DNA of 64,000 nucleotides from Owenia fusiformis. Its lineage: Eukaryota; Annelida; Polychaeta; Sabellida; Oweniidae. Location of the stretch: contig CAIIXF020000102.1 of assembly GCA_903813345.2 (NCBI GenBank), positions 1-64,000 on the forward strand. Reading direction: 5' to 3'. Position 1 is the stretch's first letter, and every line of letters starts with the position of its first letter. A program made the translations under genes and the position numbers. Positions 5,213-55,863 of this stretch are shown piece by piece. The notes beneath the pieces were generated by a model. It ran no database searches. It had not been told where the DNA came from and was given only the letters and a program-made list of their open reading frames with translations.

Positions 5213-5723
5213 TATATTGATGATTTCGAAGTCTTACGAAGTGATTCGTTCGCAAAAGCTTACATTTTCTGAAGCATAAGACCATGAGTTACGTTTGTGC
5301 TAAAAAGGTAGAAATGATTTTGCCTATATCTCACAGAATTATGGAAAAACAAATTTTATCGAATAGCGGTTGCGCCATTTTGTCACGAAAACGGCTTTAT
5401 GAGTTCCTCCACAGTGTATTAATATGAATCTTTCTTCGTTCGTGGTTGAACGTAGGTATATATCTTGGTGCGTTTTAAACAGATGAAACTTCATTCAGTT
5501 TAACCTTCATAGAGTATCATATGAGTATTTGGCGAACATGCGAAAAACTGGTTGTGTTAACATTAAAACGTTGAATGCTACTGATTATAACGTGATTTTA
5601 TTGGCAAAACACGTTAGAATTCATTCGAATAACAGAAAGACGTAATCACGAAAATGCTGTTTTTAGAGTGTAGCTACGCCACTGTAAAATATTTATATTG
5701 TGTCAGGTCAACTATTACAATAT
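5213..5723. other. Non-coding stretch between two MITEs
   Basis: No exon or RNA gene was recognised. Confidence 0.45.
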
Positions 5724-6192
5724 CACGGTGTATAACCCAAACGCTCCTACATGCACGACGGAGCGTTTCATTACTGAAATTAAACAAAGAAACGCTCCGG
5801 AGTAGGAAAACTGGCTGGCGGGAATGATGAGCCGTCTGACAATTTCCTCAATAATGGGAATAAGAAGTATGAGTTACATATTCGAGTATACCATTCGATG
5901 GGTGTGATATTCATGTTGTACTTGGCTGGCTGTTGACGTTTGAAGCAACAAGGAAGAGCTGTACGAAGCAGTATAGGTATCAAAATCCAAAAACTTATCT
6001 GTCATTCTACCGGTCAAAGCCCCTTTTGTGGATACATGTGATTAGTTGAGCCAAGATTAGAGCACCAACGTATATTTTAGTCAAAGTCCAATGCTTCAAC
6101 GCACCATACATAATCGTAATAGTGATTTGATGTATTTTATGTAAATAAAACGCTCCGTCGTGCATGTAGGAGCGTTTGGGTTATACACCGTG
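5724..6192. mobile_element. 469-bp element with perfect 45-bp TIRs, CACGGTG ends, 5-bp TSD (Transib/RAG-type candidate)
   Basis: Positions 5724-5768 and 6148-6192 are perfect 45-bp inverted repeats. They begin CACGGTGTATAACCC, and the insert is flanked by AATAT at 5719-5723 and 6193-6197, a 5-bp target duplication. Each end contains an internal hairpin, AAACGCTCC ... GGAGCGTTT, around a 12-nt loop, and a third AAACGCTCC lies at about 5788. CAC-initial heptamers and 5-bp duplications are hallmarks of Transib and RAG-like transposons, whose signal heptamer is CACAGTG in RSSs. The interior is too short for a transposase; short frames exist on both strands, none securely recognised. It is most likely a non-autonomous copy. 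Perfect ends suggest recent activity. Confidence 0.8.
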
Positions 6193-6197
6193 AATAT

Positions 6198-6835
6198 ACT
6201 AATTTTTACTAATTTGAAATGCATTACACTTTTGAACTCACAACTTATTTTTATTTAAACGCTTAAGAAGACACAATAAATATTTTTACATTCTTATCTG
6301 TCATTATGTAAAATAAATTCTTACGCTTTATCTAGATTAAAGTAGTACTTTAGATAAATGTTTTTAGGTGTTGTCTAAACTTGTGTTTTATTTATGAAGA
6401 TTTTATAGCTAGTCATTGCTCAAAACGAAACTAATATTTAAGTATGAGTTACGTGTATCTTGTGTAGGCCTCTAGTGAAATAGACAAGCAAGATGAAACC
6501 GTTGCTATCTCCCTTCGTGCCGCTACTTCTTGGATTCCAATTTTTCATCAAGATTAAAGCACAGGATTCATGTAAGTAGTTCACAGCATACAATGAAGCC
6601 GAATATATTTTTAAATATTTCACAATTACATTATAAAGCATGTTGACCGTAATGCTTTTATGATAAATCATGAATCGGATATGGTTTATACCTCTACTAA
6701 AATTTCTTGAATATTGGTCAATTTAATTGGTCAAAGTGTCATATAATTCGAGTGAATGAATGATTAATTCTATTCAAATGTTTTTTCCACAGACATGTCA
6801 GAGACAAAAAGTTCAACAATGTTCTTAACATTTGA
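6198..6835. other. AT-rich non-coding stretch
   Basis: No feature recognised. Confidence 0.4.
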
Positions 6836-9690: not shown

Positions 9691-10204
9691 CATTTGATGC
9701 TGTCCCCAGCTCCGATTTCGGTGATCGGCTAGTAAAAAAGGTTTGAGGGTATCATTTTGTTCCAGACACTCTCCAGAGTAAATTATCCTAACTTGAGTAA
9801 AAATGTGTGGTAAGTAAATTCGCTATGGGCAGTTAAAGAGGCGCCATCTATTCATTTTCAAACAGGGGGTAGGTGTATAAAATAATTTTTAACACATCTT
9901 AATAGTAAAATGACATTGAAATACTAATAAAATCTTATCAAAAACATTATTTACAATCAGTATGAATTTTTTTGTGTGAATTAGGGTGAAAATAAGGGCA
10001 TATTTTGAAATTCACTACAGGGGCGCCACCTATTTTCATACTTCTACCACGTGTAATAACTTATTTTAGATTCGTTAAGGTACGAAATGTACTGAAAAAA
10101 TTCATTCTGAAGGACCTCTATATGTTCATACCACATACTTAAAATTGGATCAATAGCTTTTGTACTGGCGGAGAAAAAAATTATTGAAATTTAAAATTGT
10201 GGCA

Positions 10205-11290
10205 TCATGCAGGATAGGGGTGACCATATCTCACATGATTAACTTCCAAAATATGGAGCATATGTATCTTAAATGGATTCAAAATGGTGTATGTACTCTT
10301 GCTTTGTCATAATATTACTAATAAGAAGTAGAAAAATGATTGTACATTTTAAAAAATATTAATTCTCATTTTGGCTTCTGACGTCCCAGGGGTGACCATA
10401 TCTCACCTTAATTAAACTTCCAAAATATGGAGCATATGTATCTCAAATGTACTCAAAATGGTGTATGTCCTCTTGCTTTGTCATAATATTACTAATAAGA
10501 AGTAGAAAAATGATTGTGCATTTTAAAAAATATTGATTCTCATTTTGGCTTCTGACGTCCCAGGGGTGACCATATCTCACCTTAATAACTTCCAAAATAT
10601 GGAGCATATGTATCTCAAATGTACTCAAAATGGTGTATGTACTCTTGATTTGTCATAATATTACTAATAAGAAGTAGAGAAATAATTGTACATTTTAAAA
10701 AATATTGATTCTCATTTTGGCTTCTGACGTCCCAGGGTTGACCATATCTCACCTTAAAAACTTCCAAAATATGGAGCATATGTATCTCAAATGTACTCAA
10801 AATGGTGAATGTACTCTTGCTTTGTCATAATATTACTAATAAGAAGTAAAAAAATAATTGTACATTTAAAATAATTTTGATTCTCATTTTGGCTTCTGAC
10901 GTCCCAGGGGTGACCATATCTCACCTTAATAACTTCCAAAAAATGTAGCATATGTATCTCAAATGTACTCAAAAAGGTGTATGTACTCTTGCTTTTAAGA
11001 AGTTTTAATAAGAAGTAGAAAAATGATTATACATTTCAAAAATCTTAATTTTAGCTTCTTACGTTCCTTGGTAATCATATCGCACCATATAATAATAATA
11101 ATAACTTCTAAGATATGTAACATATAATCCTCAAATATTCTCAGAAAAGTCCTGTCTTTTTTCATATTACTAATGAAATGTAGAAAAATGATTGCATTTT
11201 TTTTATAAATTTTAATTTTAGCCTCTGGTGTCCCAGGGGCTATCTCACCTTGATAACTCTCACGATATGCAACATATGCATCTCAAATGT
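10205..11290. repeat. ~172-bp tandem array, left arm of foldback element
   Basis: About seven copies carry the word GACGTCCCAGGGGTGACC followed by ATATCTCACCTTA, with starts near 10214, 10387, 10561, 10733, 10905 and weaker ones near 11050 and 11230. The central copies are exactly 172 bp apart. Similar 61-codon minus-strand frames recur every 172 bp (ending 10443, 10615 and 10787); they follow the repeat and are judged incidental. Confidence 0.85.
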
Positions 11291-12399
11291 GTGCTCAAAA
11301 TGGTATAAATATAGTCTTTTTTGTCATATTTATTGAGAATCATAAAATCAACAGTTCAGAATCAATGGATTTTGACTGTCTCCTCTACAGCTACATATAA
11401 TTCAGGGCAAATAATATCTGCTTTCAAATATTTGCATCTGCTCCCCAAACACCCTTTACAAGTACAATGGATGAGATTATTCCCTTGCATACCTTGGACC
11501 CAACATCTTTTGTAATCCATACAGGAATCCTTTTAGCCTGTCAATAGTGGGAGTACTTTACTCCATTTATGAAGTAATGGCAACTGCTAATGTAAGGTGT
11601 TAATATGTTATCCTGTGGCCTGCAATATATGCACCTCGGATTATACACTGAATTAAGGGATTTTGAGTATGTAAAATACGGGAAAAGGAGCTCTTTGTAA
11701 TGATAAATTTTTCTAGCCACATTAACATTCTCTAGTTTGCATGTTTGTCATACAACATACATTGATTGTAATGAAATATTAATCTATGATTGTGATGTCC
11801 CACACTTCTAGGGTCCCAAAGAAGAGCTTAGCTTTTGGAACAATTGCATTATTCTTGGCACGGTAGGCCATACAGTGAATACAACTGTTGAGATTGGGCA
11901 ATAACAATATAGCACAACATGACAAACCATGCAAACTAGAGAATGTCAATCAGGATTAGAAGCGACTTATCGCCCTTGTAATTTAGCAGTGGGACAGTTT
12001 GGTGTATGTTTGGGCATAAATGCGCCTTTTAGGCCTAATTTTTCAGGATATTTTCAAAATTTCGGGACAGATTTGGGGTTAAGGGGCCAATTTTGGTAAA
12101 TGAGGCTAGGCTACTCACACTACTGATAGGCTACCAGTATACAAAAGATGTTGCATCCAAGGCATGCAAAAGACTTATCGTCCATTGTTCCTGTAATATA
12201 AGGAGTGTTTGGGGAGAAGATGCAAATATTTGAAAGTAGATCTTAATGTCTCTGGACTATGTAGCTGAAGCCTGCAGGGGAGACAGTCCAATCCATAAAT
12301 TCTGAACTTCTGATTTCATGAATCTCAATAAATATGACAAAACAAGACTATATTTATACCATTTTGGGCACGCATTTGAAATGTTGCATATCGTGAGAG

Positions 12400-13435
12400 T
12401 TATATCAAGGTGAGATATAGTTGCCCCTGGGATGTCAGATTCGGAAGCTAAAATGAAAATTTCAATTCAAAAAGGTGTAATAATTTTTTCTACATCTCAT
12501 GAATAATATATGACAAAGCAAGACCATATGCCACATTTTTGGTATATTTGAGTTGTATATGTTACATAATTTTAGAAGTTATTGAGGGACGTCAGAAGCT
12601 AAAATTAAAATTTTTTAAATGTATAATCTTCTTATTAGTATAATATTATGACAAAGCAAGAGTACATACACCATTTTGAGTACATTTGAGATACATATGC
12701 TCCATATTTTGGAAGTTATTAAGGTGAGATATGGTCACCCCTGGGACGTCAGAAGCCAAAATGAGAATTAATATTTTTAAAAATGTGCAATCATTTTCCT
12801 ACATCTTATTAGTAATGTTATGACAAGACAAGACTATATACACCATTTTGAGTACATTTGAGATACATATGTTACATATTTTGGAAGTTATTAAGGTGAG
12901 ATATGGTCAGTGGTCATCCCTGGAACGTCGGAAGCTAAAATGAAAATTAATATTTTTAAAATATACAATCATTTCTCTACACCTTATTAGTAATATTATG
13001 ACAAGGCAAGACTATATACACCATTTTGAGCATATTTGAGATACAAATGCTCCATATTTTGGAAGTTATTAAGGTGAGATATGGTCAACCCTGGAAAAAT
13101 GAGAATTAATATTTTTTAAATGTACAATCATTTTTCTACTTCTTATTAGTAATATTATGACAAAGCAAGAGTACATACACCATTTTGAGCACATTTGAGA
13201 TACATATTCTCCATATTTTGGAAGTTATTAAGGTGAGATATGGTCACCCCTGGGACGTCAGAAGCCAAACTGAGAATTATTATTTTTTTAAATTGTACAA
13301 TCATTTTTCTACTTCTTATTAGTAATATTATGACAAAGCAAGAGTACATGCACCATTTTGAGTACATTTGAGATACATATGCTCCATATTTTGGAAGTTA
13401 ATCATGTGAGATATGGTCACCCCTATCCTGCATGA
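12400..13435. repeat. ~172-bp tandem array, right arm, inverted
   Basis: The inverted counterpart of the left array: AAGGTGAGATATGGTCACCC followed by CTGGGACGTCAGAAG recurs near 12400, 12722, 12893, 13072, 13230 and 13404. Copies are more diverged and less regular than in the left arm, with small indels, so the arms are not freshly converted to identity. Confidence 0.8.
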
Positions 13436-13947
13436 TGCCACAATTTTAAATTTCAAGATTTTTTTTCTCCCCAGGTACAAAAGCTATTGATCCAATTTTA
13501 AGTGTGTGCTATGAACATATATAGGTCCTTTAAAATGAATTTTTGCAGTACATTTCGTACCTTAACGAATCTAAAATAACTTATTACATGTGGTAGAGTA
13601 CGAAAATAGGTGGTGCCCTTGTAGTGAATTTCAAAATATGCCCTTATTTTCACCCTAATCCACACAAGAAAATTCATACTGATTGTAAATAATGTTTTTG
13701 ATAAGATTTAATTTGTATTTCAATGTCATTTTACTATTAAAATGTGATAAAAATTATTTTATACCCCTACCCCCTGTTTGAAAATGAATAGACGGCGCCT
13801 CTCTAACTGCCCATAGCGAATTCACTTACCACACATTTTTACTCAAGTTAGGATAATTTACTCTAACGAGTGTCTAGAACAAAATGATACCCTCAAACCT
13901 TTTTTACTAGCCGATCACCGAAATCGGAGCTGGGGACAGCATCAATT

Positions 13948-14384: not shown

Positions 14385-14845
14385 CTAGTTTAAGTAATTT
14401 AATTTATTACTTAGTATTTTACAAAATTATTTAACATGTAATTATATTACTAGTAATTACTAGGTAATTGTTTTTTGATGTGAATCAATAAATTAAGTAA
14501 TTATTATACTATCAATGTTAATAAATTACTAATATCTGTATTTTCATTTTATTTGTATGAAATGATATTACTAAGTATTTTCTTCTAGATATAAATTACT
14601 ACCACTCTTAATATGATTACTTAGTACTTCTGTAAGAAATTCACGTTATTACTTGTTTAAGTGAATTCAAATCTAATTGTATTGCCAACTAGTTTTTGCT
14701 TTTGTAAATTGCTCCATTTCAGTAATCATAGTTCCACCAAAGTAAATTAATTATTCATACATGTTATTCAGTTATAAAATGTCTTTTTCTCGGTATATTT
14801 TACAGATCAAAAATCTCCAAAGTATTTCAAATTACTTATACAGTA
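14365..14845. repeat. AT-rich arm with TAATTACTAGGTAATTG words, left
   Basis: Sequence rich in AAGTAATT/AATTACTT words. It begins near ACAGTCTAAATAAAA and matches, in inverted orientation and with gaps, the block ending near 21786 (for example TACTAGGTAATTGTTT against CCAGGTAATTGTTTG). These are probably degenerate long terminal inverted repeats of an outer DNA element into which the plus-strand LINE inserted. Confidence 0.4.
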
Positions 14846-14870
14846 CAAGCATATAAGCTACAGTAACATT

Positions 14871-15834
14871 TTGCACCTGTCAACGCTCTTTTCGAGAGAC
14901 GATGTTTTTTCTTTAGGCTCAGTTCTGATTCTTGATATAATCATATTATTATCGCACGATGTGCATCAAAATCCTGGTCCGGATTTGAAAATCCTATCAA
15001 CGAATGTCAACGGATCTCTAAAACCTTTAGCTAATGGGGAAAATAGCAGTCGTTTTGATGATTTATCTTTAAGGGCGCGTGAATTAAAATGTGATGTTAT
15101 GTCACTTTGTGAAGCCGGTTCAAATCTTGACCCAGATAATCTTATTATTAATGGTTTTCATAAACCTATTTATCCAATGATTCCAAACCATGGCAGGGGT
15201 ATTCTGATATATATACGAGAAAATATACCTTATAAAATTTGAAGTGATCTAAACACCGAAAATGAAATCTGCTGGGTAGAATAACAAATTTCACAGCATA
15301 AAAAAATATTGATAGGTTCAGGATACAGATCTCCTAAAACTCAACTGGCAGTAGTTGCCGAGATATCTAAATTTAATAGACTTTTATCTGAATCCATAAA
15401 TAAGGCGCTAACCTCCGATGCATTCGACCTCATTGTTCTTCAAGGTGACTTTAATGCGAAGTCAGTTTATTTTTACGAAAACGAACGTGAAAATACTTTA
15501 GGTCCTAAGCTATACGATACTATGTCAAATTTAGGATTTGAAGAATTGATAAATACTCCCACCAGAATCACCGAGACTTCTGAATCTTTTCTTGATTTAG
15601 TATTTACTAACTTCCCTGGATCAATAAATTCGACCGAAGTCCATGCTCCTATAGGGAACAGTGATCACAGTACAGTCCTGACTAATATAAATATATCCCC
15701 ACATTTTAATAGTGAGCCAAGTAAGAAAAAGACCTGGCAATATAAAAACTGCAACTTAGATAATCTTAATAATCTCATTTTAAATCAAAACTGGCATGAT
15801 ATTATTGCCACGGGAACAATTAATGCCTCAACTC
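14871..15834 (+). pseudogene. LINE endonuclease (EEP/APE-type) with 2A-like NPGP motif
   Basis: One reading frame runs from about 14871 to the insertion point at 15834. It is broken by TGA at 15240 and TAA at 15282; the first fits a CGA-to-TGA change. An N-terminal hydrophobic stretch is followed by HDVHQNPGP (14958-14981), resembling 2A-like sequences known before APE domains of some invertebrate LINEs. The endonuclease shows TNVNG near its start, GDFNA for the catalytic GDFN motif, and NSDHS near the end for the SDH motif. Its role in an intact element is to nick target DNA and prime reverse transcription. The reading starts at a TTG with open sequence upstream, so the true start is unknown. 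After the insertion the same frame resumes at 16211 (AVTNKLTSIF). Confidence 0.85.
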
Positions 15835-16199
15835 AGAGGGGGAGAAACACCAGGGTTCAAAGATGACATACGCTTATAATGTAAATCTGTATTGAGATGA
15901 CATCGTCGCTGATTGGTCAAAAGTCGACAAACAAATGACGTCATCACTGGCGGTTTCAAAATTTTCGAAATACGCTTCGAATAATATTATGTTCATTTCT
16001 GGCGTGTTAACCAATATCATAGCTTCTCATTTCACATCAAGATGAAGAAAGGTGTACGGAATGTGCCTATATCAATTAAAACATCCCATCGAAGTGTAGT
16101 ATTTGAAAACTAGCCGATGAAAATTCGAACGAACGAAGGTGGTAAGCAAGAGAGGTAATTATGTATGTCATCTTTAAACCCTGGGGCGTTCCCTCCTCT
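15835..16199. mobile_element. 365-bp Mutator-like MITE inserted in LINE
   Basis: The ends are ~35-bp imperfect inverted repeats (AGAGGGGGAGAAACACCAGG on the left, complement of CCTGGGGCGTTCCCTCCTCT on the right) continuing through AAAGATGACATAC. The flanking sequence TGCCTCAACTC is duplicated exactly at 15824-15834 and 16200-16210. An 11-bp target duplication with longish TIRs fits Mutator-like elements, which make 8-11 bp duplications. Removing the element with one copy of the duplication restores the LINE reading frame, which confirms the boundaries. No coding capacity. Confidence 0.85.
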
Positions 16200-16244
16200 T
16201 GCCTCAACTCAAGCTGTCACTAACAAACTGACATCTATTTTTAA

Positions 16245-16866
16245 CCTTTAGCGTGCTGCCGGCGAACGCGTCCGCCGAGACTAAAATGTCTCTCACAACT
16301 GCCGGCGGACCCGTACGCCCAATTTCAAACTTTTAAAAACTTTACTTTTTCGCGCCATTCGTATTGTCCAATTAGATTGCCCGATTTATTCAGTGCCTAA
16401 CATGACTTCCTGTTGACCTAAAAATGGCGATATTTCGAAAAATAATTCTCAATTCAACAATTTAAACAGCGTTTTAGTCTTTTTAAGTGAACAAATCGTA
16501 CATAATGGCGGACAAATACGATCACAACGAAAATGTGGAGGAAATGAACTACGATTTCGAGCTCTTTAGGCTCTTGGAAGCCGATAATGGTCATCGAAAA
16601 TAGAAACTAGAATATTTTCTGAATTGAAAAATTGAACATTCGATCGCTGCAAATTCAGATTTGAATTCTGACCAGACGAAGGGGCGGAGCGGCGGATTTC
16701 GGAGGAGTATTCATGGTATATTTATGCCCAGTCATGTTATTGTACGAAAAATATTCATAAGAACATTTTTTCATGAGCCAGGCCACTGTATCTTCCCTTT
16801 GTGAAAATTTTATCCAGATTCATTCAGTAGTTATTGAGATATTAATTATTTAGTCCAGGCATATCA
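16245..16866 (+). mobile_element. piggyBac-like 5' fragment inserted in LINE
   Basis: The LINE frame is cut at TTAA (16241-16244). The insert starts CCTTTAGCGTGCTGCCGGCG, matching the usual TTAA target and CCYTTTR-type end of piggyBac elements. GC-rich words TGCCGGCG...CGTCCGCC and TGCCGGCGGACCCGTACGCC repeat just inside. A 32-codon frame at 16505-16603 starts MADKYDHNENVEEMNYDFE, acidic like a piggyBac transposase N-terminus, then stops. No matching right TIR or second TTAA is visible before the LINE frame resumes at about 16869, so the right end looks deleted. Confidence 0.65.
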
Positions 16867-16868
16867 TT

Positions 16869-18952
16869 TTTTGCACTCTTTGAAAAAGAAGCCAGATGCG
16901 TGGGATATATTTGCTGAAATTAATGATAATATACCATTTAAAACTAAAATTTCAAAATCAAATGATATGCCATGGTTCGATAACGAAATTAAGATGGAGT
17001 TAAACAAAAGAGATAAATTATATAAAAAGTTCAAACGAAATAATACAGAAATAAATAAAACAAACTACAAGGACCAAGTAAAAATTGTAGAACAAAAGGT
17101 AAAATTACTTAAAGACAATTATGAAAATAAGATTTGTGATGACCTTCAATCCTTTTCTTCTGGCAGTAAATTTTATTGGCAAGCTATCAAAAAACTCCTT
17201 GGTACTAGATTCACTCCAAGCATTCCAACTTTGTTTAGCTCTGATCTGACACGAGTATTTTCAACCGACAAAGATAAGGCGACTGAATTGTTAAACCATT
17301 TTACCAGTAAATTCCACCACGATTTTGATTTTGACCAAAGGGACCTGCCTACTCTCCAAATGCGAACGAACAAAATTTTGACCAATATTTCAACAAACAG
17401 AGAGGAAGTTAGAACTCTCTTACTAGATCTTAACCCCTCCAAAAAGGAAGGACCCGATGGTATCACAAATAGGATGCTTCTTATGACAGCGTCGACGATT
17501 GATTTACCGCTATCATTGCTTTTTAATAGAATTTTAAACGAACAATGCTTTCCAGACATATGGAAACTCGCCACTATATGTCCTATTTTCAAAAATAAAG
17601 GAGTACGTTCAGATAAAGCAAATTACCGTCCAGTTTCATTATTAAATACAATATCCAAAGTATTTGAGAAAGTCATCCAAAATCGAATTTTGACCCATCT
17701 CCTTGAAAACAATTTACTTTATAATAACCAATCTGGTTTTTTACCCGGTCACAGCACCGACTTCCAACTTATAGCAATAACAAATTTTATTAATGAATCT
17801 TTTGACCGCAACTGTGACGTCAGAGGAATTTTCCTTGACGTAGAATCTGCCTTCGACAAAGTCCCGCATGCTCTTTTGACTCATAAACTAAAATCATATG
17901 GTTTTGGTGCTGACACTTTGAATCTCATAAGCTCATATCTTAAAAATCGAAAAGTTCAAACTAGAGTAAACGGAATCTTATCAAATTTATCAGAAGACAA
18001 TTACATAAACAGCGGGGTGCCTCAAGGGAGCCAAATTGGGCCGATCCTTTTCTTATTATACATAAATGATTTACCGGAAGTAATTGACTCAACATCTTAC
18101 ATCTATGCAGACGACACCTCCATTTACTTACCTGTACCTAGAGATCATCCAATTCAGAACACTCACGAAATCCTCCAAAAAGATCTTGACAATATTTTTA
18201 AATGGTCACAAACTTGGAAAATGAACTTCAAGCCTTCAAAATCAAAAGAAATAATATTTTGTAAAGAAACCGTCTTTGAAAGGCCATATCCAATTTTGAC
18301 ACTTAATAACAATTCAATTGACCGAGTCGATTCACATAAACATTTAGGCGTAACTCTTGATAAAAACTTAAACTTTAAAACTCATATAAACGAAGTCCGA
18401 GCAAAAATTGACAAACTACTAAATCCCCTATCAGCATTGAAAATGAGAGTAAACTCAAAACATCTTGAAACAATGTACACTTCTTTCATCCTCTCTAAAA
18501 TCGAATACGGCTCTTTAATCTATGGTTCTGCGTCGCAAGGTGCTCTGGAACAACTAGACAAACTCCATTACAGAGCAGCCCTGATAGTTTCCGGGGCGAT
18601 TTATGGTACGTGCAAGCAAAAATTATATAAATGTTTAAACTGGAAAACCCTAGCGGAGAGAAGAGAAGAAAAACAAAGTATTCACATGTTCAAAGTCCGA
18701 TCAAATTTGACCCCCTCTTATGTAGTCTCTATATATGAAAAACTGTCCAATCCTGGTGCCGAAAGGGAGCTCCGCTCCAGAAGAGATTATGTTTTACCAG
18801 TGAGAGCATCTGTGAAATACCTAAATTCACCAGCCATAAAGCCTATCTCCATTTGGAAAAATCTTTCAACTGAAATAAAAACATCGCCAACCCTAGCAAT
18901 CTTCAAGAAAAACTATAATAAGAAATATACATTTCATAAAAGAATATTTTAA
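16869..18952 (+). pseudogene. LINE reverse transcriptase
   Basis: An uninterrupted 693-residue frame covers the region after the endonuclease through the RT and thumb. Visible RT motifs: KKEGPDGI (191-198), NYRPVSLL (251-258), motif A FLDVESAFDKVPH with catalytic Asp323, motif B SGVPQGSQIGPILF (381-394), motif C YADD with Asp414/415, and HKHLGVTLD in the thumb region. These fit the CR1/Jockey side of non-LTR elements. The frame stops at 18950-18952; shifting by one base continues into the C-terminal domain, so a small indel ended an originally longer ORF. The first methionine shown is only the first after the piggyBac insertion and not the native start. Confidence 0.92.
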
Positions 18953-19116
18953 CAAAAAATCTTAATTTGAAAAGGTCTTCTGAAACTAAACTTAATAAAA
19001 TAAGAAGCGACCTTGCCCTTAAAAGTGACTTTTTTAGACATAATTTCAACAACATCATAGATCCTTCTTGCCCCTGCGGCCACCGAAATCAAGATAAGAT
19101 TCATCTTTTACTCGAC
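18863..19116. repeat. Segment A, first copy (LINE sequence)
   Basis: This 254-bp piece of the LINE C-terminal region is repeated at 19621-19874 with no difference seen by eye. Its end (CTCGAC) is joined directly to segment B. Junction bases AC are shared between the continuing LINE and the start of B, a 2-bp microhomology. Confidence 0.9.
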
Positions 19117-19620
19117 AATTGTTAAAATAGTAGCGCAATTCATTCTATAGCGACGCAGTGTGCCTTAAACCTTTCCCAGACCTATATATTTTGAAATTAT
19201 CCTTTTAATACTGAGTCCGCAGCATTCATAAAAAATGGTGTTCAAGGTACACTATCTATACAAATTATTTTTGCATCTTGGAAGCCAGGCAGTATCTGTG
19301 TGATTTTATAAAAATTCGGAAATGTTTTTCAGATATGAGCCCCCTCTAAATATTGGGTGCGGAGGAGCTCCATAAACTCATCTTTTTAAATATGCCCTTA
19401 TAAGTATACTTATCTATGCTATAAAGGAGCACACGCAATCTAAACAAATGGTACAAGTGATACACTATATCATATCAAGCTTTAGTAAAATCCATCCAGC
19501 CAAATATTTGACCTCTCTTGCCACACCTATTTACTCATATAAAATATTTTTTATTTCACTCAAATGTAGAATTATATCTTAAGCATGCATAATGTCTAAT
19601 ATGGAGTGATTCCAATAAAT
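19117..19620. repeat. Segment B, inserted copy
   Basis: 504 bp that appears identical by eye to 21974-22477, which lies beyond the LINE and its flanking arm. It therefore did not come from the LINE; it was copied from ~2.9 kb downstream. Its right junction to segment A shares AAAT. No gene is seen in it. Confidence 0.9.
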
Positions 19621-19874
19621 CTTTCAACTGAAATAAAAACATCGCCAACCCTAGCAATCTTCAAGAAAAACTATAATAAGAAATATACATTTCATAAAAG
19701 AATATTTTAACAAAAAATCTTAATTTGAAAAGGTCTTCTGAAACTAAACTTAATAAAATAAGAAGCGACCTTGCCCTTAAAAGTGACTTTTTTAGACATA
19801 ATTTCAACAACATCATAGATCCTTCTTGCCCCTGCGGCCACCGAAATCAAGATAAGATTCATCTTTTACTCGAC
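19621..19874. repeat. Segment A, second copy
   Basis: An exact-looking copy of 18863-19116. From here the LINE continues normally into its C-terminal zinc motif and 3' UTR. Confidence 0.9.
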
Positions 19875-20075
19875 TGCCCTCTAACCGCCATACATAGAAA
19901 TGATTACATACAGAACATCCTAAAGTTAGACAATCTTGATATTATGTGCTATTTTGGAAAAACCAGAAAGCAAAAAATAGAATTTATACTTTATGGAGAT
20001 GAAAATTTAAATAGTGAACTGAATACAAAATGCCTTCAACTATCTTCAAATTATATCGATAACATCTTAGAATGA
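19707..20075 (+). pseudogene. LINE C-terminal domain with zinc motif
   Basis: This frame (open from the frameshift near 19707, first usable codon 19725) encodes NLKRSSETKLNKIRSDL, then CPCGHRNQDKIHLLLDC, a C-x-C-x8-H-x4-C-type zinc motif found at the C-terminus of many CR1-like RT proteins, and ends at 20073-20075. It is the true C-terminus of the element's polyprotein, displaced by one base from the RT frame. The first segment A copy carries the same start of this domain but runs into segment B before the last Cys. Confidence 0.8.
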
Positions 20076-34860: not shown

Positions 34861-35071
34861 AATACTCTCTGACAGCAAATGGCTAACGCTATGAACATAC
34901 TCTTTGTTATATGTATACCAAATTGTACTCCCACTAATATTTGACGCTATTATATTTCACGTTTTTGGCATTTTGAAATTTCGCGGCTATTATATTAGCT
35001 AATTTTCAGTTTTTGAAATTTCGCGGCTATTAATTGTTGAGAAAAGTTGCTTGGTATAAGAATAAGAATTA

Positions 35072-35462
35072 GAGTCCATTTCACTGTTTCATTTCGTCAG
35101 TAAAAGCTAAAAAATAAGAAATCAAAATATCATTTTGCAATAATATGTGGAAAAATATATTCCTATTGTACATGAATGACTTTTGTATATCTTAGATTGC
35201 TTCTAGTTTGGCTTAAAAAGTGTGTGGCCTCTTATATTTGGATGCTTCTCTGCCATGTTATTTTCAATAAGATTAACATGGCTGAAATTCCTCAAATTAC
35301 AAGACGGCACAGGCTTATTGCACAAAAAACTAAAAAATCTGAAATATACAAATGCCATTCATGTACATTATGAATATACCTTTCCATATATTATTGCACA
35401 ATGGTCTCCCAATTTCTTATTTTTGCCGTTCTACTGACGAAATGAAACAGTGAAATGGACTC
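35072..35462. mobile_element. 391-bp foldback MITE with TA flanks
   Basis: The ends GAGTCCATTTCACTGTTTCA and complement are flanked by TA (35070-35071, 35463-35464). Inverted similarity continues inward about 125 bp on the left (TTGTACATGAATG) before a short loop. It fits a Tc1/mariner-type non-autonomous element. Small open frames within are incidental. Confidence 0.8.
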
Positions 35463-35644
35463 TAAGTAAACTAAACTCCACGTTTACCAAAAACATAGAA
35501 CACAACTACCAAATTAACTTTCAAATAGTAATGGCCTTGTGGGCGAGTATGACATTTATTCATCAGTCCATTTACATCAAGCAACTATACATCCCGTTCC
35601 ATATAACAAATCTCAACATCTGAATGTTACTCTGAGCAACATTT

Positions 35645-35915: not shown

Positions 35916-36691
35916 TACTTTTTCAAATCAGTTCTAACATAATATCTAAATGTTTTTTACTGTGTAAATACCCTTAATAACAGGCGAGACAGCCTTACAT
36001 TTACTCTAAAATGATTGGTAAGCTATTATCATTCCTGAACTTACGGTAAGCTCGTAACAATTAATATTAATAAAACAAATGTTATTCTTACATGAAATAA
36101 ACGAGGTGAAATCGAAAATCTCTCAACTTCCGGTGAGTCAACCTTAACCCCCTTTAAGGAGGGAGGAGGTACTCGACTTGAAGTCGGCCCCGTGATCCGA
36201 AATGAAGCAGAGTTACATACGAGGACTTCGATAAACGATACACCTGTTCTTAACAATGCAATGTTTGGCATTTCGAAAATTTTAACAAATATGAAATATC
36301 TTAAAAACATTTGCCTGTCGTAACTTTGTCATACCTTGCTTGCGTGTAAACCGAGAATGACCTTACATTACATACATAATTCACATGTTCAAATGAAACG
36401 TTAGAAAATCTATTAATCATAAGAATGAGAAAAATGGCAAAAATAATTGACTCCAAATTTCATCTTCTTATGTTTAGACTCTTAGATTAGACTATTGTCT
36501 TTATTACTCACTTTTTACCGATCTTGTGCATGTATATCCCCGGAATATAAGTTAAGCAAGCCGGCAACTTAAATCATAATTATACAGTAATAGTTTTAGT
36601 ATCACAGTATTAAAAAAATAAATACAACAATAAATGTTTTACTATGTGTATGTAGTTTCCGATAGAATGCAGCTCGTGGTGTCTTTTGTAG

Positions 36692-38414
36692 GTGACTACC
36701 TATTGGTGAGACAAGATAATTCGATGTTACGCAATAAAGAGTTTAAGACGACATTCGGGAGACCATATTGTCCTCCGCAATTAGGTTCCATCGTTAACAT
36801 CTCTACTCAGACTTTACAGCAATGCTTCACACTTGCCTGTCAATCCAAAGCAAATGTTGTATACTTTGAGGAAAAGAGTGTCTGCTATGCCTATAAGTGT
36901 GGCCAAAGTTCCAATGACTGGCAATTTAAATGGCAGAGCAGCAAAAACCAAAATACACGTCATAGAGGACAAACCTATGCAATGCCGCATCCAAGTTATG
37001 TGAGGTGCCACAATTCCTACTTTGTGCAAAGATTATGGGACGGTGAGGGAAAATTCAAGGCAAATTGTTCCCTGATTACAACACAGAGAGTTCACGACCT
37101 CGATCAATGTAAAAAGAAAGCTTGCAACGATAAAGCGAATGCCTTTAATTTCTACAACCATCCAGATTCGAATTATGGATGTGACACAATGCACTGTGGA
37201 TGGATTGTTGCCAATAATGACTATGATTTTAACATTGTCGTAAGTGACAGAACACACGTAAAAATATACACCCTTTCCCATACCACACAACCTTGCGAGT
37301 CGGTTCTGTGGAATGAATCAGTAAGCATTCCGGCAGTTATTCCAAATTGTCAAGAATATAGCATATTTCCGACTGAACTTATAGTTGGTGATAAGAACCC
37401 TCAGCTAATGTGCAGATTGGGGTTCAATTCCTTTCAAAAACAAGTAACTTCCGAGAGTATAGCATTGAAATGCACCAGTGATGATGAGGGAACAGGGTGG
37501 AAGTTTTATGATGGAGGTGATTGTTTTCACCATGAGACTGTTACTCAATGGCTAAATTTACCATTTCCCGGTACACCAAACTGTAAAGCATCAATGTATC
37601 AATTGAGAAGAATGAAAGAATTGTGTTATATGTCAACCTGTGATACTAATACAGTCATTCCCGAAGCAAAAGATTTGAGGCAATGCATGCTTCATGCTTG
37701 TGAGAAGAACTATAATGTCATTAATTACTTTCGCAGTGCGAACTCAGTCGAGTGTGACTTAAGAAATTGTACTATTTTTTCAGAGGGTGACTATGACTTG
37801 AAGTTAATCAGATCGCAAAAGCACCGCGCTGATGTTTACGCGCTGAAGTATCAAAAATGTCCCGCCTTTTCAGAAAAAACAAAAAAAATTGAAACCTCTG
37901 GTACAGTCGATAAGGAAACGGTTCAACGGATGATTAATGCATTAGTAGATAAGTTAGATAATATTTTGAAAAAAATGCCAAATGGCACGACAGGTGATGT
38001 ATTGCAAGACATATCAGTTAAAATAGATCATAGAATGAGTGAAATAGGAGCAAGTATCCTGCACGCGTGTAATGTTATTCTTACTGTAGCGATCGCAATG
38101 GGTGTTATATGTGTTCCATATGTTCTGTATAGAGTATTCAGGGATTATATGGACTCTAAAAAATAAGTTCGATTACACTATTGCTAAATTGTTTTGTGTA
38201 TTATTAAAAGGAAGACAAATTATAAATTGTCTCAAATGCGGGATAACTATGTTATATAAGGAATGGATTTATACCGACTTGCCAGATATCCAATATGTAC
38301 TTGCTTTCACTTTCAGTTATACACGTGTGTTACACCTTGGGTCTATCTACTGCTTCCTAGCTAGACAACATATTTCATTCAGTTTCATGTTTCGAAACAG
38401 ACAACATAAATAAA
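36692..38414 (+). CDS. 3' exon of a membrane protein with three PAN-like repeats and a CCP domain
   Basis: The open frame covers 36634-38166 (510 residues), but TGTCTTTTGTAG at 36680-36691 is a good splice acceptor, so the exon probably starts at 36692 in phase 1, with the signal peptide on an exon not identified. Numbering by the full frame: three similar Cys-rich modules lie at ~46-125, ~145-215 and ~331-409, each with L-x-x-C-x3-A-C, then C-x4-C. I read them as PAN/apple-like. Between the second and third, residues 239-297 have four Cys, GDKNPQLMCRLGF and GTGWKF, as in a CCP/sushi domain. A helical stalk (425-475), one membrane segment (~478-498) and a short tail RDYMDSKK follow. AATAAA at 38409 could end the transcript. 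It is probably a type I surface protein; the function is unknown. Confidence 0.75.
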
Positions 38415-40960: not shown

Positions 40961-41833
40961 GAAACTGTATATTCAACTTTTAGCAACTGTACCTATACAT
41001 GTATTTTGACTAAAAAAATTTCAAACATTTTCCTTGTCTTAACTATGGTGTAAATACTACTCAAAGGCTATTAAGATACCTATTCCCCATGGAAATAAAT
41101 GTAAAGTCAGGTTTAACTCATGATTTTATTTTATTTAGGTATGTTTAAGGAAATTACCTGATCATTAGATTGATTTTACCAACTTGACCTTTTTGCTCAT
41201 CATTTGGCCTAATTTTGAAATAGTATTGTGAAGTACATTTGTGAGGATATTCTAGATGCAAAATAAGTTTGATTCTGATCGGGGCAGAAAAGGGGGTCTG
41301 TTGGAACGGTACCTTTGATAACATTTGTCAGCCTAACAGAGGTTTTAAACTACTCAGAAACCTTGAAAAATATGTTTGCGAAAAATTATTTAAAGTTGCA
41401 TATTGATTTAATAATCAAATCTTTATATGCTATTGTGAAGAATACACTATAACAAGACCAAGGCACATAAAACTTTGCTTGCGGCCACAGATAATGTTTT
41501 TTGAAATTGTTTGAGGGAACTATGTATCAAAATCCATGCTTCTATCACAAAAGGAAACGGTAGTTTCCCTAAATCTGCCTTACTATCAAGGGTGTCTGAA
41601 AACATGTAAAACCAAACAATGAATAAAAAGCTGTAAACATTTAATACACTCAAAATAGGATCGCAGGTGTATCACATGGCTAACCTTGGGGTTTCAGGCT
41701 AATGTATTTATAAAAACTAACTCTTCTGATATTGTATTCAAAATATCTTAAAAGCAGAGTCAGAAACCTATGACAACTACTAACTTTTTTCACATTCAAC
41801 TAAACCTAGCATATAGTCCTACGGCCAAGGCCA
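40961..41833. other. Non-coding stretch
   Basis: No gene or element end recognised. Confidence 0.4.
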
Positions 41834-43079
41834 TTTGTGTCCAAAAAACCTAGATTCAATTTGACTTTAGATTCATGTAGGGGACCCCAAGGCATGTAAA
41901 AAAAAGTTTGTGAACCCTTGCAAAGCAGGCTAAAAAGTGCTGAGTCAGCAAATTTTATCATTTTTTGAGTCGGAGTTTGACCATATGCCTGAAACTATTT
42001 AATATCTCATCTGAGGTTGCTGCAATTATAATGAAACATTGTTAATATATCAATAAGGCATGTATGAAGAATTCCTGAAAGTTTGTATCTTATCCAACAT
42101 AATTTGGTAGAGATATGGGAAAATTTGTCCTTAAAAGTACATTATTTTTCTTCAAAATGTCTTAATCAGTCGATAGTTAATCAGTCATTTAAAAAATAGT
42201 AAGGGCCTATGGCGTATAATACCTGATTAAAAACTTTACTGATGATGTTAGCAAATATTTCTTGCATAAGTTTCAATAAAAAGTACAAGCATCTATTTTT
42301 TCTGATTTTTCTCTTTACCTTCCCCTAAAAATTCAAGAAAGGGGGCGTGGCACATTACACTTCAGTTGTTGAACTTGTTGCTAGGGTCAAATAGAAAATT
42401 TGTATCATTATAGCAAAATGTGTTATTCTAAATAAATCTTAACACTATATGTGACATCGTAATATGCTAAATATATTAATTATCTACCATTTTATATTTT
42501 TACAGCTTATCATTGCCATACCCCATAAAACCGTTTAGGGTATGTGTGGTCAGTAATAAGAAATACATGTTTGTGTACTAATAACATTTAAGTTCAAAAT
42601 TGTATTTCAGATGCCATTCTATCCTAATGTTGTCCATGTAGTTATGGTATGTTATGAATGAATTATGATGATAATATGTTATATTACACTCCCCATCATA
42701 AGTTTTGTAACTGGAAGTCCCCCTTTGAATCACTTATCAAAGCTTGTCATGCTGTTTGGCAATTTTAAACAAGACATCAAGCTTTTGAAATAAAGCAATA
42801 AGGAACAAAATCGAGATTCAAACATTGACAGACATTGATATGTTATCATATGAAAACTTGCAGTTGCCAACCGTATAGAGGGGGTGTTTATGCTTTGTAT
42901 TATATGTATCATAAATTGTTTAGTTGTAGAAACCTGAAGCCAAAGGAAATAATAGTGCTTTACATTCTCTCCAAGTGATCAATTCCATGGCACTGGGTTT
43001 GTTGACATTACTTATATGATATGTGACATTACGCAAGTTTGGTCCTATAAGGCCAACATATTCCAATGGCGCAGAATCC

Positions 43080-43460
43080 AACTCACATATTCAAGTCCCA
43101 CCATGCCATATCGAGACCCACAATGTCCCATGAGACCTTGTTAACTTTGCCCCATGGAGTCTCATTGAGTCCCTTCATATCCCATCGAGTCCAACAAAAA
43201 TTATGTAATTTAGTTTAGAAGGTTTTGTCTAGGTCATTTTGATCCCAAGTTAGCTGACACATCCCATGATCAAAAGTCCCACGATGCCCAATGGGGCTTC
43301 GTGGGACTTTGCCAAATGATACCCCATCGAATCTCATTGGACTCAATGGGGCTTCATGGGACAAAGTCCCAAGGAATCCCAAGGAGTTCCATCGGGCAAA
43401 GCTCAATGAAGTCCAACGAATTTCCATGAGGTCCCAATGTTAAATCAATGGAGGTCCCAA
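43080..43460. repeat. Degenerate TCCCAATGGGA-type low-complexity tract
   Basis: Dense repetition of TCCCA, CCCAT, ATGGGGCTTC and GGGACTTTG on both strands, many forming short palindromes (CCCAATGGGG). No constant period. An open minus-strand frame here reflects the repetition. Confidence 0.6.
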
Positions 43461-44592
43461 CATGTCGTATTGGTGTATGTTAGGCTTTAGCCAAGTAACT
43501 TGCTTTGTTTACATTCATCAAAACGTTAAAAAGAAAAAGTTGTCAAAACTTTATAAGAGCGTGATTATTTGGACTGATTTCACTTGTCTGCAACGGATAT
43601 TTTAGTTTTACACGAACTGAGCTGGCCAGTGCCGTTCATAATATCTTCAAATAAACTTTTTCTCCTGCATTCAATTCATGACCACATGTTACTACAGAAT
43701 CCATAGGATCCTCGGGGATGAGCAATTCCATGGGAACACTTGGCCATGGATTGAATGTCTTTAACTGGTGAATAGGTTTATTATGAAGGGGGTTCCATGA
43801 TAACATATGGTCTTGGAAAACAGATTCCAAAACTCAATCAGAGTGACAAAACATAAGTAATGCTTAATAACTGAGTGTGGATTGGTTGATCACAAGATAT
43901 TATCGGTCAGTAGCTTAGTACTTTAACAGATAGCAGGGAACAAAAACTGGAACTTACTGTCAATGATGCTGCTCCAGGAATAATGATTCATCTGTATAAA
44001 GCATAATCAAGGTGGTAGAAGCAAATGTGAACCCATTGAAAATTCTGATAATTAGCCATCTTGATTCTCAAGATTTCAATTGCTCCAACTGTATTACTAC
44101 TTGGAAGCTCCATTAAATACTTACCCTATTATACTATTATACTTACATGGAGGTGATGACTATTGACACCAGAAAGAGCTTATCATAAATAAATGAAACT
44201 GGACAGAAACTGAATGAATAGTTCAAGAATACTTGACTGGTTGAAAGAGATGCTATACCGGTATAAATGATGATGTCAAGATGCCACATGTTGCACAAAA
44301 AATTGTGAAAAGAGAAGAGAGAAACAAATTCTACAGTTTGTGTGTAATAATAATACATCTACAACTAAAATAACCTTAATCGACAAGTGAAATTGATTCC
44401 AATGATCGAGATTTTAAAAATCTATTTCTAATTTTGGTGCACATATACAAAGGAGGTTACCTCACTGGCGCTTCTTAACTCTTGAATCCAAAGGGATACA
44501 ATTGTTTCCTGTACAGAGTACAATCAATTCCCTTGATACAATGTGAAGTATCGAGTGGTAGACTAGCCTTGAAACATTATCTCCGGGGACAA

Positions 44593-44872
44593 CAGGAGCA
44601 TAGCCAGTTTTCCTACAGGGGGGGGGGTCGATCCAGGGTTCGATCGTCAAAATATTTCGGTTTTCAGTCAGGGGTGTGCGATTGTGGCATAAAAAAGCCA
44701 AAAATTAAGATCTATCTTGAATTTTACAAATGTTGATTCAACTTCCTTCAAAATAGGGCTAGAAGCTTAAAATAAAGAGCATTTTAAAACTCCTTTCTTC
44801 TTCTATCTCATGGTTATCCCGTATTTTATTGGTTATGGGGGGAATGCGATCCCATCCCTGGCTATGCCTATG
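44593..44872. mobile_element. 280-bp MITE related to 4995-5207
   Basis: Ends CAGGAGCATAGCCAG and complement of CTGGCTATGCCTATG; flanks GACAA and GGCAA match at four of five positions, consistent with an aged 5-bp target duplication. The shared CAGG...TAGCCAG end, G run and GATCC/GATCGTC interior link it to the 4995 element. Confidence 0.65.
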
Positions 44873-46128
44873 GGCAAGATCTATTATTTGGACATAAACA
44901 AAACACACACATCTTGTTATGTTCTACAGACTACAACTAAACAATTTATGACATGTAAACAATACGAAGTGTGCAAACTGTAACCACTCTCACTCTTAAT
45001 CATTTGTTGTTACAATTTGTTATTATATAGCTAATTATTTGCAGCAACAATAGGAGTCTCGTTGCAGTTTACATGGACCCTATACTATAAAGCATGTACA
45101 CCCCCTCCATAAGTTTGGCAACTGGAAGTAATTGTATGATAGCATATGAAAGTCTGTCAATTTTTAAACCTTGATTATGTTCCTTATTACCATATTTGAG
45201 ATACTTCGATTTCATTTGCCAAAAATAAACAGGCTTTAATAAGTGATTCAAAGTGGTTCGAGTTGCTAAACTTATGATGGGGAGTGTTATCATTCATAAA
45301 CATAAACCATGAACCATAAACTATATGAACAACATTAGGAAAGAATGGCACTTGAAATACAATTTTGAAAAATGTTATTAGTACACATACATGTATTTCC
45401 AATTGCTGACCACACATACCCTAAACGGTTTTATGGGATATGGCAATGATAAGCTGTAAAAAATATAAAATGGTTGATAATGAATATGTTTAGCATATTA
45501 TGATGTCACATATAGTGTTAATATCTATTTAGAATAACAAATTTTGCTATAATGATACACATTTTCTATTTGACCCTAACAACACGTTCAACAACTGAAG
45601 TGTAAGGTGCCACGCCCCTTTCTTGAATTTTTAGGGGAAGGTAATGAGAAAAATCAGAAAAATAGATGCATGCACTTTTTATTGAAACTTATGCAAGAAA
45701 TATTTGCTAACATCATCAGTGAAGTTTTTAATCAGGTTTTATACACCATAGACCCTTACTATTTTTTAAATGACTGATTTACTATCGACTGATTAAGAAA
45801 TTTTGAAGAAAAATTATGTATCTTTAGGAATAAATTATCCCATATCTATACCAAATTTTGTTGGATAAGACCCAAACTTTCAGGAATTCTTCATACATGC
45901 CTCTTATTGATATATTAAAAATGTTTGATTATAATTGCAACATCCTCAAATGAGACATTAAATAGTTATAAACGTATGGTCAAACTCCGATTCGAAAATG
46001 ATAAAATATGCTGACTCAGCACTTTTGAGCCTGCTTTGCAAGGGTTCACATACTTTTTTTACATGCCTTAGGGTCCCCTACACGAATCTAAAGTCAAATT
46101 GAATCTAGGTGTTTTAGACACAAATATG

Positions 46129-47419
46129 GGGTTTATGTATCCCAGCTTATTAGATATAGCAGGGCGTGTTCAAAATATCTAGTTTCAAATCAAGACACCA
46201 TATTTCAGTGATCAAGCTGTTAGGTCAAGGTAATACTTGTAAAAAACTTAAGAAATCCTTTCTGGGCTTTGCTGAAAAGTACAAGTCATTAATTTCGAAA
46301 TTTCAAGTTTTACCACTTGAGATGCTGAAGGATGTAGGAATGGTATAATAAATTGGCAATGAACTCACAATTTATTCACTTGGCACCTTTTGAGGTGGAT
46401 CCCGGCTATGGCATTAATGGTTGAGAAATAGGGATCGAAACCAGCCATAATTTTCTCCTGATGACCATTGTGAATTGTTGTGTTTTATGGATTATGATGA
46501 CGGCTTTGCGAACGGATGTTGACCCTCTGAATTGCCTATGGATTTCGAGACTGGATTTGATCTATCCACATCATTTGAGACCGAATACTCTATCTTTTAT
46601 GAGTACTAGTATCTACAACTATTTTTGATGTTATGAGTATTGGTCATCAATTTTTTCAATTTTTCTTCAACATGTATTGTAATGCCTTCAGTATGAATGA
46701 AATGTCCCTTGGTGTTCTTGTCCTGGATTGTGATATTGGTTCTCGATTGGAGGGGGGGGGGGGATGTTAGACATTGTTTCTTTTCACGTTAGGTCATGGT
46801 TTTGGGATATATAGGGTCTACTTTTCTTATGACAGTTTTACACTTACAGTTTGCTTTTCTTGTTGGGTTTCTTTAAAAGTTTTAGTCACCCTTCCCTTTG
46901 GCTTTTGAGCTTATATTTCAATTTTAGAATATTTTGGGCTCATATCATTCCTTGTCATCTCTATTTTCTAAAAATACTCCAAGTATATACTTTATTTGAG
47001 GAAAACTAACGATTTTTACAATAATGCAATCATTTGTCTATAAGAATGGTTACCATTCTTATTATTTGGGAGAATTTCAATATTTTTCAGCCATTTTTTG
47101 CACTTTGACTCCATTATAACTTCACTAATTTATACGTGAATCTTTTGGGAGATATTATATTTGAGATTGTAAGGAATATATTGGTAGGTCAAATGTTCGT
47201 GTTACTTGCAATTTTGTCACTCTAATTCTGCCTTTAGATTTACAAAAATTATTTGAATAGCTATTTAACATAATGAAAATTAGAAGCAAATATACCCTTA
47301 ATCAATTACTAGGGTAAAATCATAATTTTAAATGAAATGATAAAAATAAAAACAATAACGAGGAGGCAATGGCAGTGACAATAATATTATACAAATACTG
47401 GATGATCAGGAGATGGATA
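46129..47419. other. Non-coding stretch with an inverted-repeat partner
   Basis: 46815-46930 (TAGGGTCTACTTTTC, CTTACAGTTTGCTTTTCTTG, CCCTTCCCTTTGGC) is an inverted copy of about 50545-50670. A G run lies at 46752-46763. No gene recognised. Confidence 0.5.
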
Positions 47420-47421
47420 TA

Positions 47422-48481
47422 CAGGGTGGGCCAAAAAAAAGTTCACCCTTTTTCATTTTGATCAAATTTTCTTATTTTTGATGCAATGCCTCTAAAAATT
47501 GATATGTATATAGCTCAGACATTTCTGTACATGTTGTTAGGATTTGAGTGAAATTTATGCAACAGTGTTGTCATGACACCTAAAATATATTTATGGTGTG
47601 TCATGAAAAAAAAACAGAAATTCACTTCATTTACAAAATGGCGGATTTCAAAAAAGGAGGGAAATTTGAAAAGAAATTATCATGGTAAATATAATTTTTA
47701 TGTCAGTTAATGCAAAATATTACAAAGTAGAGTGTTAATTAATAGTCAGAGTTGATGATAAACACCTCTTTAAACAATTAAGTACTCTTATAAACACCCG
47801 ATACTACCATAGATGAGTTGGTCAACAAGTTACTGAAAATCCATGGTTTTATCCAATTTTCCTCATTTTTACGTTCACAATATTGATAATAATTTGATGG
47901 TTTTATGTAATAATATAATTACAAATGAATAAGTTATTAAATTCTACATACTATATAGACAGAGTGCTAAAAAAAGTCCTTATTAAAGGATATGAATCGC
48001 ATCAATCAAAACTACATATTCCAACAAGATGGGGCTCCCTCGCACACATCTAAAGCGACAATGGAGTTCTTGCATGCCAATGCACCTGATTTTATCCCCC
48101 CTGACTTATGGCCCTCAAATAGCCCTGATCTCAATGTTATGGATTATTTTGTGTGGGGTGAACTAGAAAAACATGTTCATAGTGTTCCCATCCATTCAGT
48201 TCAAGAACTCCAACAAAGAATAACTTTATGTTGGGAACAATTATCACAACAATAAATTAACGCGGCAATAAATAAATGGCGTCATAGACTTAAACTGGTT
48301 GTGCAGGAACAAGGAGGACATATTGAACATTTACTTTAAAAACAAAACAGCCAAAGACACACCTAATGTTATATATCGACCTTGTTCAGTTATCTACATA
48401 TCAATTTTTTAAGGGATTGCATCAAAAATAAAAAAATGAGATTAAAATGAAAAAGGGTGAACTTTTTTTTGGCCCACCCTG
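47422..48481 (+). mobile_element. Internally deleted mariner transposon (DD37D)
   Basis: Long inverted ends (CAGGGTGGGCCAAAAAAAAG ... and complement) of about 70 bp with TA on both sides (47420-47421, 48482-48483). The inner end part pairs GATGCAATGCC with GGGATTGCATC. Only the C-terminal part of the transposase remains, so it is non-autonomous. The ends share CAGGGTG with elements at 26160, 51633 and 61049. Confidence 0.9.
47992..48340 (+). pseudogene. Mariner transposase C-terminal remnant
   Basis: The frame 47992-48255 encodes FQQDGAPSHTS, containing the second catalytic Asp, then WPSNSPDLNVMDYFVWG with the third Asp. Thirty-seven residues separate them, i.e. a DD37D signature of Tc1/mariner transposases. 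After a TAA stop at 48253-48255 the same frame continues NAAINKWRHRLKLVVQEQGG, the usual end of these proteins. The first catalytic Asp and the DNA-binding domain are absent, so it cannot be active. Confidence 0.9.
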
Positions 48482-48734
48482 TATATAATTTTCAATCCCG
48501 ACCAGAAATAACCTATTTATTCCATGATACATCCCTCTTAAATGTTACATTTGGATAATACAAACATTATATTAATAAATGCACATTGTTTGAACTTAAA
48601 TTTCAAAGTTGATTAACATAATTGTTTTTGTGATACTCCCTAGAACTGCTTGTTGTGAATTGAACAAAATGTATTCGTGTTGGATGTAAATAATATTATA
48701 ATCTATATTTCTATTTACAAGTTGAGTCTATAAA

Positions 48735-48812
48735 ATGACCCGACTGATGACCTGACTGATGACCTAACTGATGACCTAACTGATAACCTTACTGATTGAC
48801 TGACCTGGCTGA
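48735..48812. repeat. 12-bp tandem repeat GACCTAACTGAT
   Basis: Six to seven imperfect copies of GAYSTRACTGAT. Confidence 0.85.
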
Positions 48813-48839
48813 CAATGGGATTTTTCCAATATTGTCTTC

Positions 48840-49846
48840 AAATACTCTTGACTTTGTATCAGGATGTCATCTATATTTTTTCAAAATTTCAAAATGTCGT
48901 TGAATCTGAACCGGGAGTCCGACTTAAATTCCAAGTTCAGATTCGAAATCAAACATTGAATTTGAAGAACATTTTTGATGACCTACTTTCTGGACACCAT
49001 GCATGTCTCAAAACATTTAAGATACCTTATGACGGCAAAAAACTAAGACTATGAGCCTACTCTTTTCTATCAGTACACAAAATTTCAAAGAAAAATATGA
49101 AAGTATAGTGCGGTTATTGTGAAAACAAAATGAACTAGATTTTGACCTTGACCCAAGATCTTCAAAATTTTGACTTGACTTGTGATTTTTGGTCCTTTTA
49201 ATCATTTTAACCTATTTTACACTAAAAGAAAACAATTTTTAAAATTTCAAGATTGTGTCCATAAAAAGTAATAGACCCCGAACCAGAAGTCATACGTTGA
49301 TTTTGGAGATCTTTTTGTTGACCTACTTTCTGGACGCTATATCTCAAAACTGGATCAAAATACTTCCATGCGGCAACAGATTAACACCATTAGTATACTT
49401 TAGGCTATTTGTATACTAAATTTCTAAGAAATATATGTAAGTGTAGTGCTAGGATCGTAGAAATAAGAAAAGTCATACATTTGACTTGGCATTAAAGTGT
49501 TCAAATTTTGAACTTAGTTAGCTTTATTGATCATTCCACTATTGTAGACTCCTATTTAATTTGATTCCATAGCTGATAAGTTCACGCCATTGATAGGAAT
49601 ATTACCTTATCGACGTTTCGAGATTTCAAAACGCCATAACTTCCGAACCGGAAGTCGGATTGAAATTTGATTGGCAGATCCGGATTCCTGAGAAAATTGT
49701 ACCCGTACGTCATAACTCACACGTTGAATTTGGAGAACTTTTTGTTTTGATCTAATTTTCGAACATCATATCTCAAAAATCAGTCAATATACTTTCTGCC
49801 GGCAAAAGGCTAATACTATTAGCATATATTTTGCTATCTGTATACC
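48840..49846. repeat. Degenerate ~350-430 bp repeats (TTGACCTACTTTCTGGAC)
   Basis: Blocks near 48970, 49305 and 49735 each contain TTGATGACCTA/TTGTTTTGATCTA-like words, then CTCAAAA, then a GCGGCAAAAGGCTAA-like word, then TACTATTAGTATA. The last block matches 34740-34900. A diverged repeat family, no gene. Confidence 0.6.
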
Positions 49847-55860: not shown

Positions 55861-55863
55861 AAA

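Follow-up and report, generated by a model that had tools for sequence, protein, structure and literature searches.

A 469-bp element occupies positions 5724-6192 of the window, by which we mean the whole 64-kb stretch of DNA analysed here (G+C ~34%). Its terminal inverted repeats (TIRs), at 5724-5768 on the plus strand and 6148-6192 on the minus strand, are identical over 45 bp, the left one beginning with CACGGTG and the right one ending in CACCGTG; 48 of the 49 outermost positions pair, and identity over 50 nt is 98%. Directly outside both ends lies AATAT (plus strand, 5719-5723 on the left and 6193-6197 on the right). When the element is taken to start at the C, five is the only duplication length among 1 to 12 bp that fits: the 3-bp flanks differ (TAT versus AAT), and those of 2 and 4 bp mismatch too. 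In 20 dinucleotide-shuffled windows the longest inverted repeat within 1 kb measured 12-15 bp, as compared with 45 bp in the element, and an exact 5-bp match was found at 0.185% of random boundary pairs placed 469 bp apart (P=0.00185, n=200,000). These results bear out the preliminary description of the locus, which had reported perfect 45-bp inverted ends starting with CACGGTG and a clean 5-bp AATAT duplication. The heptamer CACGGTG per se is unremarkable, occurring 4 times in the 64-kb window against 2.47 expected (at least 4 times in 24 of 100 shuffles). A window-wide scan for CAC...GTG pairs lying 40-6000 bp apart and flanked by a 5-bp duplication singled out the element, which alone had 10 or more of the 16 end matches. 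The scan revealed no second copy in the rest of the 64-kb window and, because the copy is single, the 5-bp length of the duplication stands on one insertion.

In the interior of the element (5769-6147), the frames that were compared with Pfam and PDB show no recognisable coding sequence. Twenty-one stop-to-stop frames of at least 20 aa overlap the element, the longest being 73 aa; three of the 21 (50, 58 and 73 aa) were compared with Pfam, and no family was found up to E 0.1. A frame at ~5794-5928 had been noted, with little weight, as faintly like the end of a Transib/RAG1 protein, a likeness for which we found no support in Pfam (E 0.1) or PDB (E 10). The 50-aa stop-to-stop frame (5784-5936) matched no RAG1 or Transib chain among PDB sequences up to E 10; its three PDB matches (E 0.00025 to 0.014) were all to one three-repeat fucose-binding lectin and arose from summed weak scores, each single repeat having an i-Evalue of 130 in the two alignments shown. 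We therefore rejected the RAG1-like frame, which has no Pfam family and whose PDB matches are to the lectin alone. In the window as a whole, 69 stop-to-stop frames of at least 75 aa gave 12 Pfam families at E 0.01, with DDE_3 as the sole transposase match; RAG1, Transib and hAT were absent among these 12 families, a result that shorter or decayed fragments would escape. Rfam returned no family at the gathering score for 5400-6600, and ARAGORN, run in the bacterial setting, returned no tRNA for the window.

The ends of the element also carry a short internal repeat. Exact copies of the 9-mer AAACGCTCC, or of its complement, lie at 5739 (+), 5760 (-), 5790 (+), 6148 (+) and 6169 (-), and the 64-kb window is otherwise without them; these five copies compare with a mean of 0.002 per shuffled element (2000 shuffles). 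Each TIR contains two of the copies, whose starts are separated by 21 bp, or roughly two turns of the helix, and which can form a hairpin as single-stranded DNA. The hairpin previously noted in each end, formed by AAACGCTCC and GGAGCGTTT, is thus seen in both TIRs, with a 9-mer count far above that of the shuffles. On the left (5739-5768, plus strand) it consists of AAACGCTCC, 12 nt and GGAGCGTTT, and on the right (6148-6177, minus strand) it mirrors the left. DNA folding of 5724-5772 gave -9.2 kcal/mol (z -2.92), a stability reached in 4 of 200 shuffles, and that of 6144-6192 gave -10.1 kcal/mol (z -3.27), reached in 1 of 200. The fifth copy of AAACGCTCC (5790-5798, plus strand) is present only on the left, making the two sides unlike; here, 5786-5799 pairs with 5759-5772 to form a second inverted repeat. 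When the folded segment is lengthened to 5724-5810 (-14.6 kcal/mol, z -3.41, with 0 of 200 shuffles as stable), the fifth copy captures the inner arm of the hairpin, and the left TIR hairpin is therefore not the preferred structure in this fold. The 9-mers would more plausibly act as paired protein-binding sites than as structures needing extrusion.

The element is a real and clearly bounded feature of an ordinary kind. Its TIRs, its target-site duplication, its small size and the lack of a recognisable gene together leave little doubt that we are dealing with a copy of a MITE-like, non-autonomous DNA transposon of the cut-and-paste type. The alternative, that there is no transposon here and that we are looking at an inverted repeat due to chance or at a palindrome with a regulatory role, draws on the position of the element upstream of a candidate first exon (6493-6571, recognised by eye), whose beginning resembles a signal peptide (MKPLLSPFVPLLLGF...) and which is followed by GTAAGT. 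This alternative is very improbable given perfect arms of 45 bp, against at most 15 bp in the 20 shuffles, plus the duplication. Since the candidate exon lies ~300 bp downstream, the insertion may sit in a promoter region. As for age, the perfect ends had been read as a sign of recent movement, a conclusion that is weak, since 0 mismatches among 45 TIR positions still permits up to 6.4% divergence (95% upper limit; 5.8% with the duplication included). A recent insertion from an active source element is possible, as is an old copy, given possible gene conversion.

The combination of CAC...GTG ends with a duplication of 5 bp puts a transposase of the Transib/RAG1 type foremost among the candidate sources of mobility. 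The Hztransib heptamer is also CACGGTG. According to published accounts, the TIRs of Transib, ProtoRAG and protostome RAG-like (RAGL) transposons begin with CAC, and their duplications are mostly of 5 bp (PMC7204232, PMC8355894, PMC4411706, PMC8289069); the element is like Transib in both its CAC-initial TIRs (PMC8355894, PMC4411706) and its 5-bp duplication (also PMC1852546). Hztransib of Helicoverpa zea, however, is described as 3518 bp long, with a 489-aa protein and a 5-bp duplication GCTCG (PMC1852546), whereas the element has 469 bp, no recognisable gene and the A/T-only AATAT. A further difference is seen in the hairpins within the TIRs of the element, which go unmentioned for Transib in the descriptions compared. 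Moreover, a bias towards G/C in the target is reported for Transib and ProtoRAG (PMC8289069) and for RAG (PMC11844651), as a tendency rather than a strict rule, and the all-A/T target of the element runs contrary to it, although this is a weak point in DNA of ~66% A+T. A ProtoRAG assay is reported to have tolerated A/T-rich duplications, with lower efficiency (PMC8289069).

Protostome RAGL transposons, as described, resemble the element in the 5'-CAC, in the 5-bp duplications and in having non-autonomous copies, which are reported, often with duplications, in the oyster Pinctada imbricata (PMC7204232). Comparison with the TIRs of these transposons, which the preliminary description had proposed, showed agreement in CAC and little else: the TIR of the element matches the protostome RAGL consensus CACTWMCAAACKTYKBB at 5 of 17 positions and at 2 of the 14 positions beyond CAC, where random 14-mers from the window average 6.0, and at TIR positions 8-10 it has TAT versus the AAA of protostome RAGL. 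The proposed Transib/RAG signature therefore stands in part. Both the CAC start and the duplication of 5 bp are present in the sequence and belong to the published features; the RAGL consensus is not followed past CAC, the target is all A/T, and the frame likened to RAG1 has no support. When heptamers were assayed with vertebrate RAG, CACGGTG came second to fourth among heptamers in the four best-quartile spacer classes (0.344 to 1.036) and was poor, as were other heptamers, with the four worst spacer classes (0.022-0.090) (PMC9723617); TA after the heptamer, as in the element, was in none of the assay rows compared. Counting against a Transib/RAG source is a mollusc survey in which one Transib was counted, although the survey is ORF-based and may miss intron-bearing or decayed Transibs (PMC10294476).

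The same MITE-like element could instead have been moved, through the same cut and staggered paste with a different recognition of the ends, by a transposase outside Transib whose duplications are of 5 bp, such as that of hAT5, or by one of an unclassified superfamily, a reading that we consider a tentative but genuine possibility. Near its ends the element carries several short inner repeats, some in one orientation and some in the other, which resemble the binding sites of hAT and CACTA; the CAC start, however, is unusual for hAT, being, to our knowledge, not the usual hAT end. Families of hAT with 5-bp duplications like that of the element are on record (PMC12730594), hAT is reported to rank second among DDE superfamilies in the mollusc survey (PMC10294476), and the A/T-only target is at odds with the Transib bias; nevertheless, the 12 Pfam families from the 69 longer frames of the window include no hAT. 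Another candidate source lies within the CMCT group (CACTA-Mirage-Chapaev-Transib), where a non-autonomous element of the EnSpm/CACTA or Chapaev type would have CAC..GTG ends and several subterminal repeats, and the 5-bp duplication would be coincidental. EnSpm termini are given as 5'-CAC..GTG-3', the same as in the element (PMC12730594), and the element does have alternating inner repeats, but EnSpm duplications are given as 3 bp (PMC12730594), while the element with its C start fits 5 and not 2, 3 or 4, which makes this origin unlikely.

No more probable, in our estimation, is a Harbinger-like TIR element whose true end lies one base outward. The inverted repeat does include the T at this position (TCACGGTG, 46 bp), and from there a duplication of 1 or 3 bp can be read, with ATA on both sides as the maximum; canonical Harbinger duplications are stated to be 3 bp (PMC12730594). 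However, a match of any length from 3 to 10 bp was found at 3.2% of the 200,000 random boundary pairs, compared with 0.185% for the exact 5-bp match, so that chance would yield the 3-bp reading far more readily, and base composition suggests that an extra base would pair by chance in about 1/4 of cases. Ginger elements were rejected, their ends being reported as TGTNR (PMC2836005).

Transib/RAG is thus our best single guess, and no more than that. The reading that we prefer is of a single MITE-like copy moved by a transposase from another locus of the genome, the likeliest being one from the Transib/RAG1-like branch within the CMCT group; we give it a probability of about 0.42, which applies to the whole statement, transposase family included, with the family, the binding to the 9-mers and the mobility all inferred. 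Such a transposase would recognise CACGGTG at each tip, and probably also the pair of AAACGCTCC sites whose starts lie 15 and 36 bp in from the tip. It would cut just outside the CAC ends and insert these into the target with a 5-bp stagger, and the filling of the stagger by repair would leave AATAT on both sides. A more specific proposal, which we regard as doubtful, is that the element represents a MITE family of Transib or RAG-like lineage whose signal in each TIR combines the heptamer CACGGTG with two copies of AAACGCTCC, 21 bp apart and arranged as a palindrome, a layout unlike both the heptamer-nonamer RSS and the A-rich ends of protostome RAGL. If the element was moved by a RAG1-like transposase, it would be a small, naturally occurring substrate whose inner signal differs from the nonamer, of use in studying the origin of RSS signals, and its heptamer would also be one that is well used by vertebrate RAG in favourable spacer contexts. 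For now, it is a single small transposon copy of ordinary appearance.

Searches for relatives covered prokaryotic and viral rather than invertebrate collections, and the failure to find any there therefore says little. Two scans of genome contigs from these collections revealed no relative, and neither did a distant BLAST comparison with phages and plasmids. Exact patterns of 24, 20 and 20 letters, scanned against viral contigs, hit 0, 0 and 1 contigs, respectively. The single end-like match (contig L001, 20 bp aligned at 95%) was rejected as a chance match in a contig that, read untranslated, resembles phage tail genes. The hairpin pattern was found in five viral contigs, none of which (0 of 5) has CACGGTG within 300 bp on either strand, and two of which (L003 and L005) have the same sequence there; these were likewise rejected as relatives, since they look like bacterial terminators. 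In the literature, we found no printed description of the element, in a search blind to most subscription papers and supplements, and no paper on CACGGTG together with Transib; among the matches listed for CACGGTG with 'transposable element', none was on molluscs by title.

The window is eukaryotic by content, as seen from its LINE reverse transcriptases and a Tc1/mariner relic. The latter, at 47417-48486, has 43-bp perfect inverted ends starting with ATATACAGGGTGGGCC, and a frame within it (47971-48252) matches Pfam DDE_3 at E 1.9e-6, with 28.2 bits falling just below the curated cut-off of 28.6; it is a Tc1/mariner-like relic separate from the 469-bp element. Around it lies an inverted repeat (46810-50670) with 107-bp arms of 94% identity, which is possibly a nested mobile element. 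A stretch of 397 bp at 35069-35465, possibly another small TIR element, has 34-bp perfect inverted ends, and its sole flanking match is of 2 bp, three bases inside the ends. An open 510-aa frame at 36634-38163 is cysteine-rich, with a hydrophobic stretch towards its end; it has no Pfam family above the cut-off, and its best Pfam match (STAT_alpha, E 0.053) and its one PDB match (E 0.067) were taken as chance. Two large inverted repeats are also present: a very large one at 9694-13945, with arms of ~1.86 kb at 87% identity, each carrying a tandem array with units of ~159-172 bp, and a second at 41833-46125, with arms of ~1.08 kb, also at 87% identity. Two regions are LINE-like, namely 14778-20075, with matches to endonuclease and reverse transcriptase (15285-15863 and 16838-18949), and 52650-56680, with RVT_1 at 56072-56680 and zf-RVT at 52650-52997 on the opposite strand.
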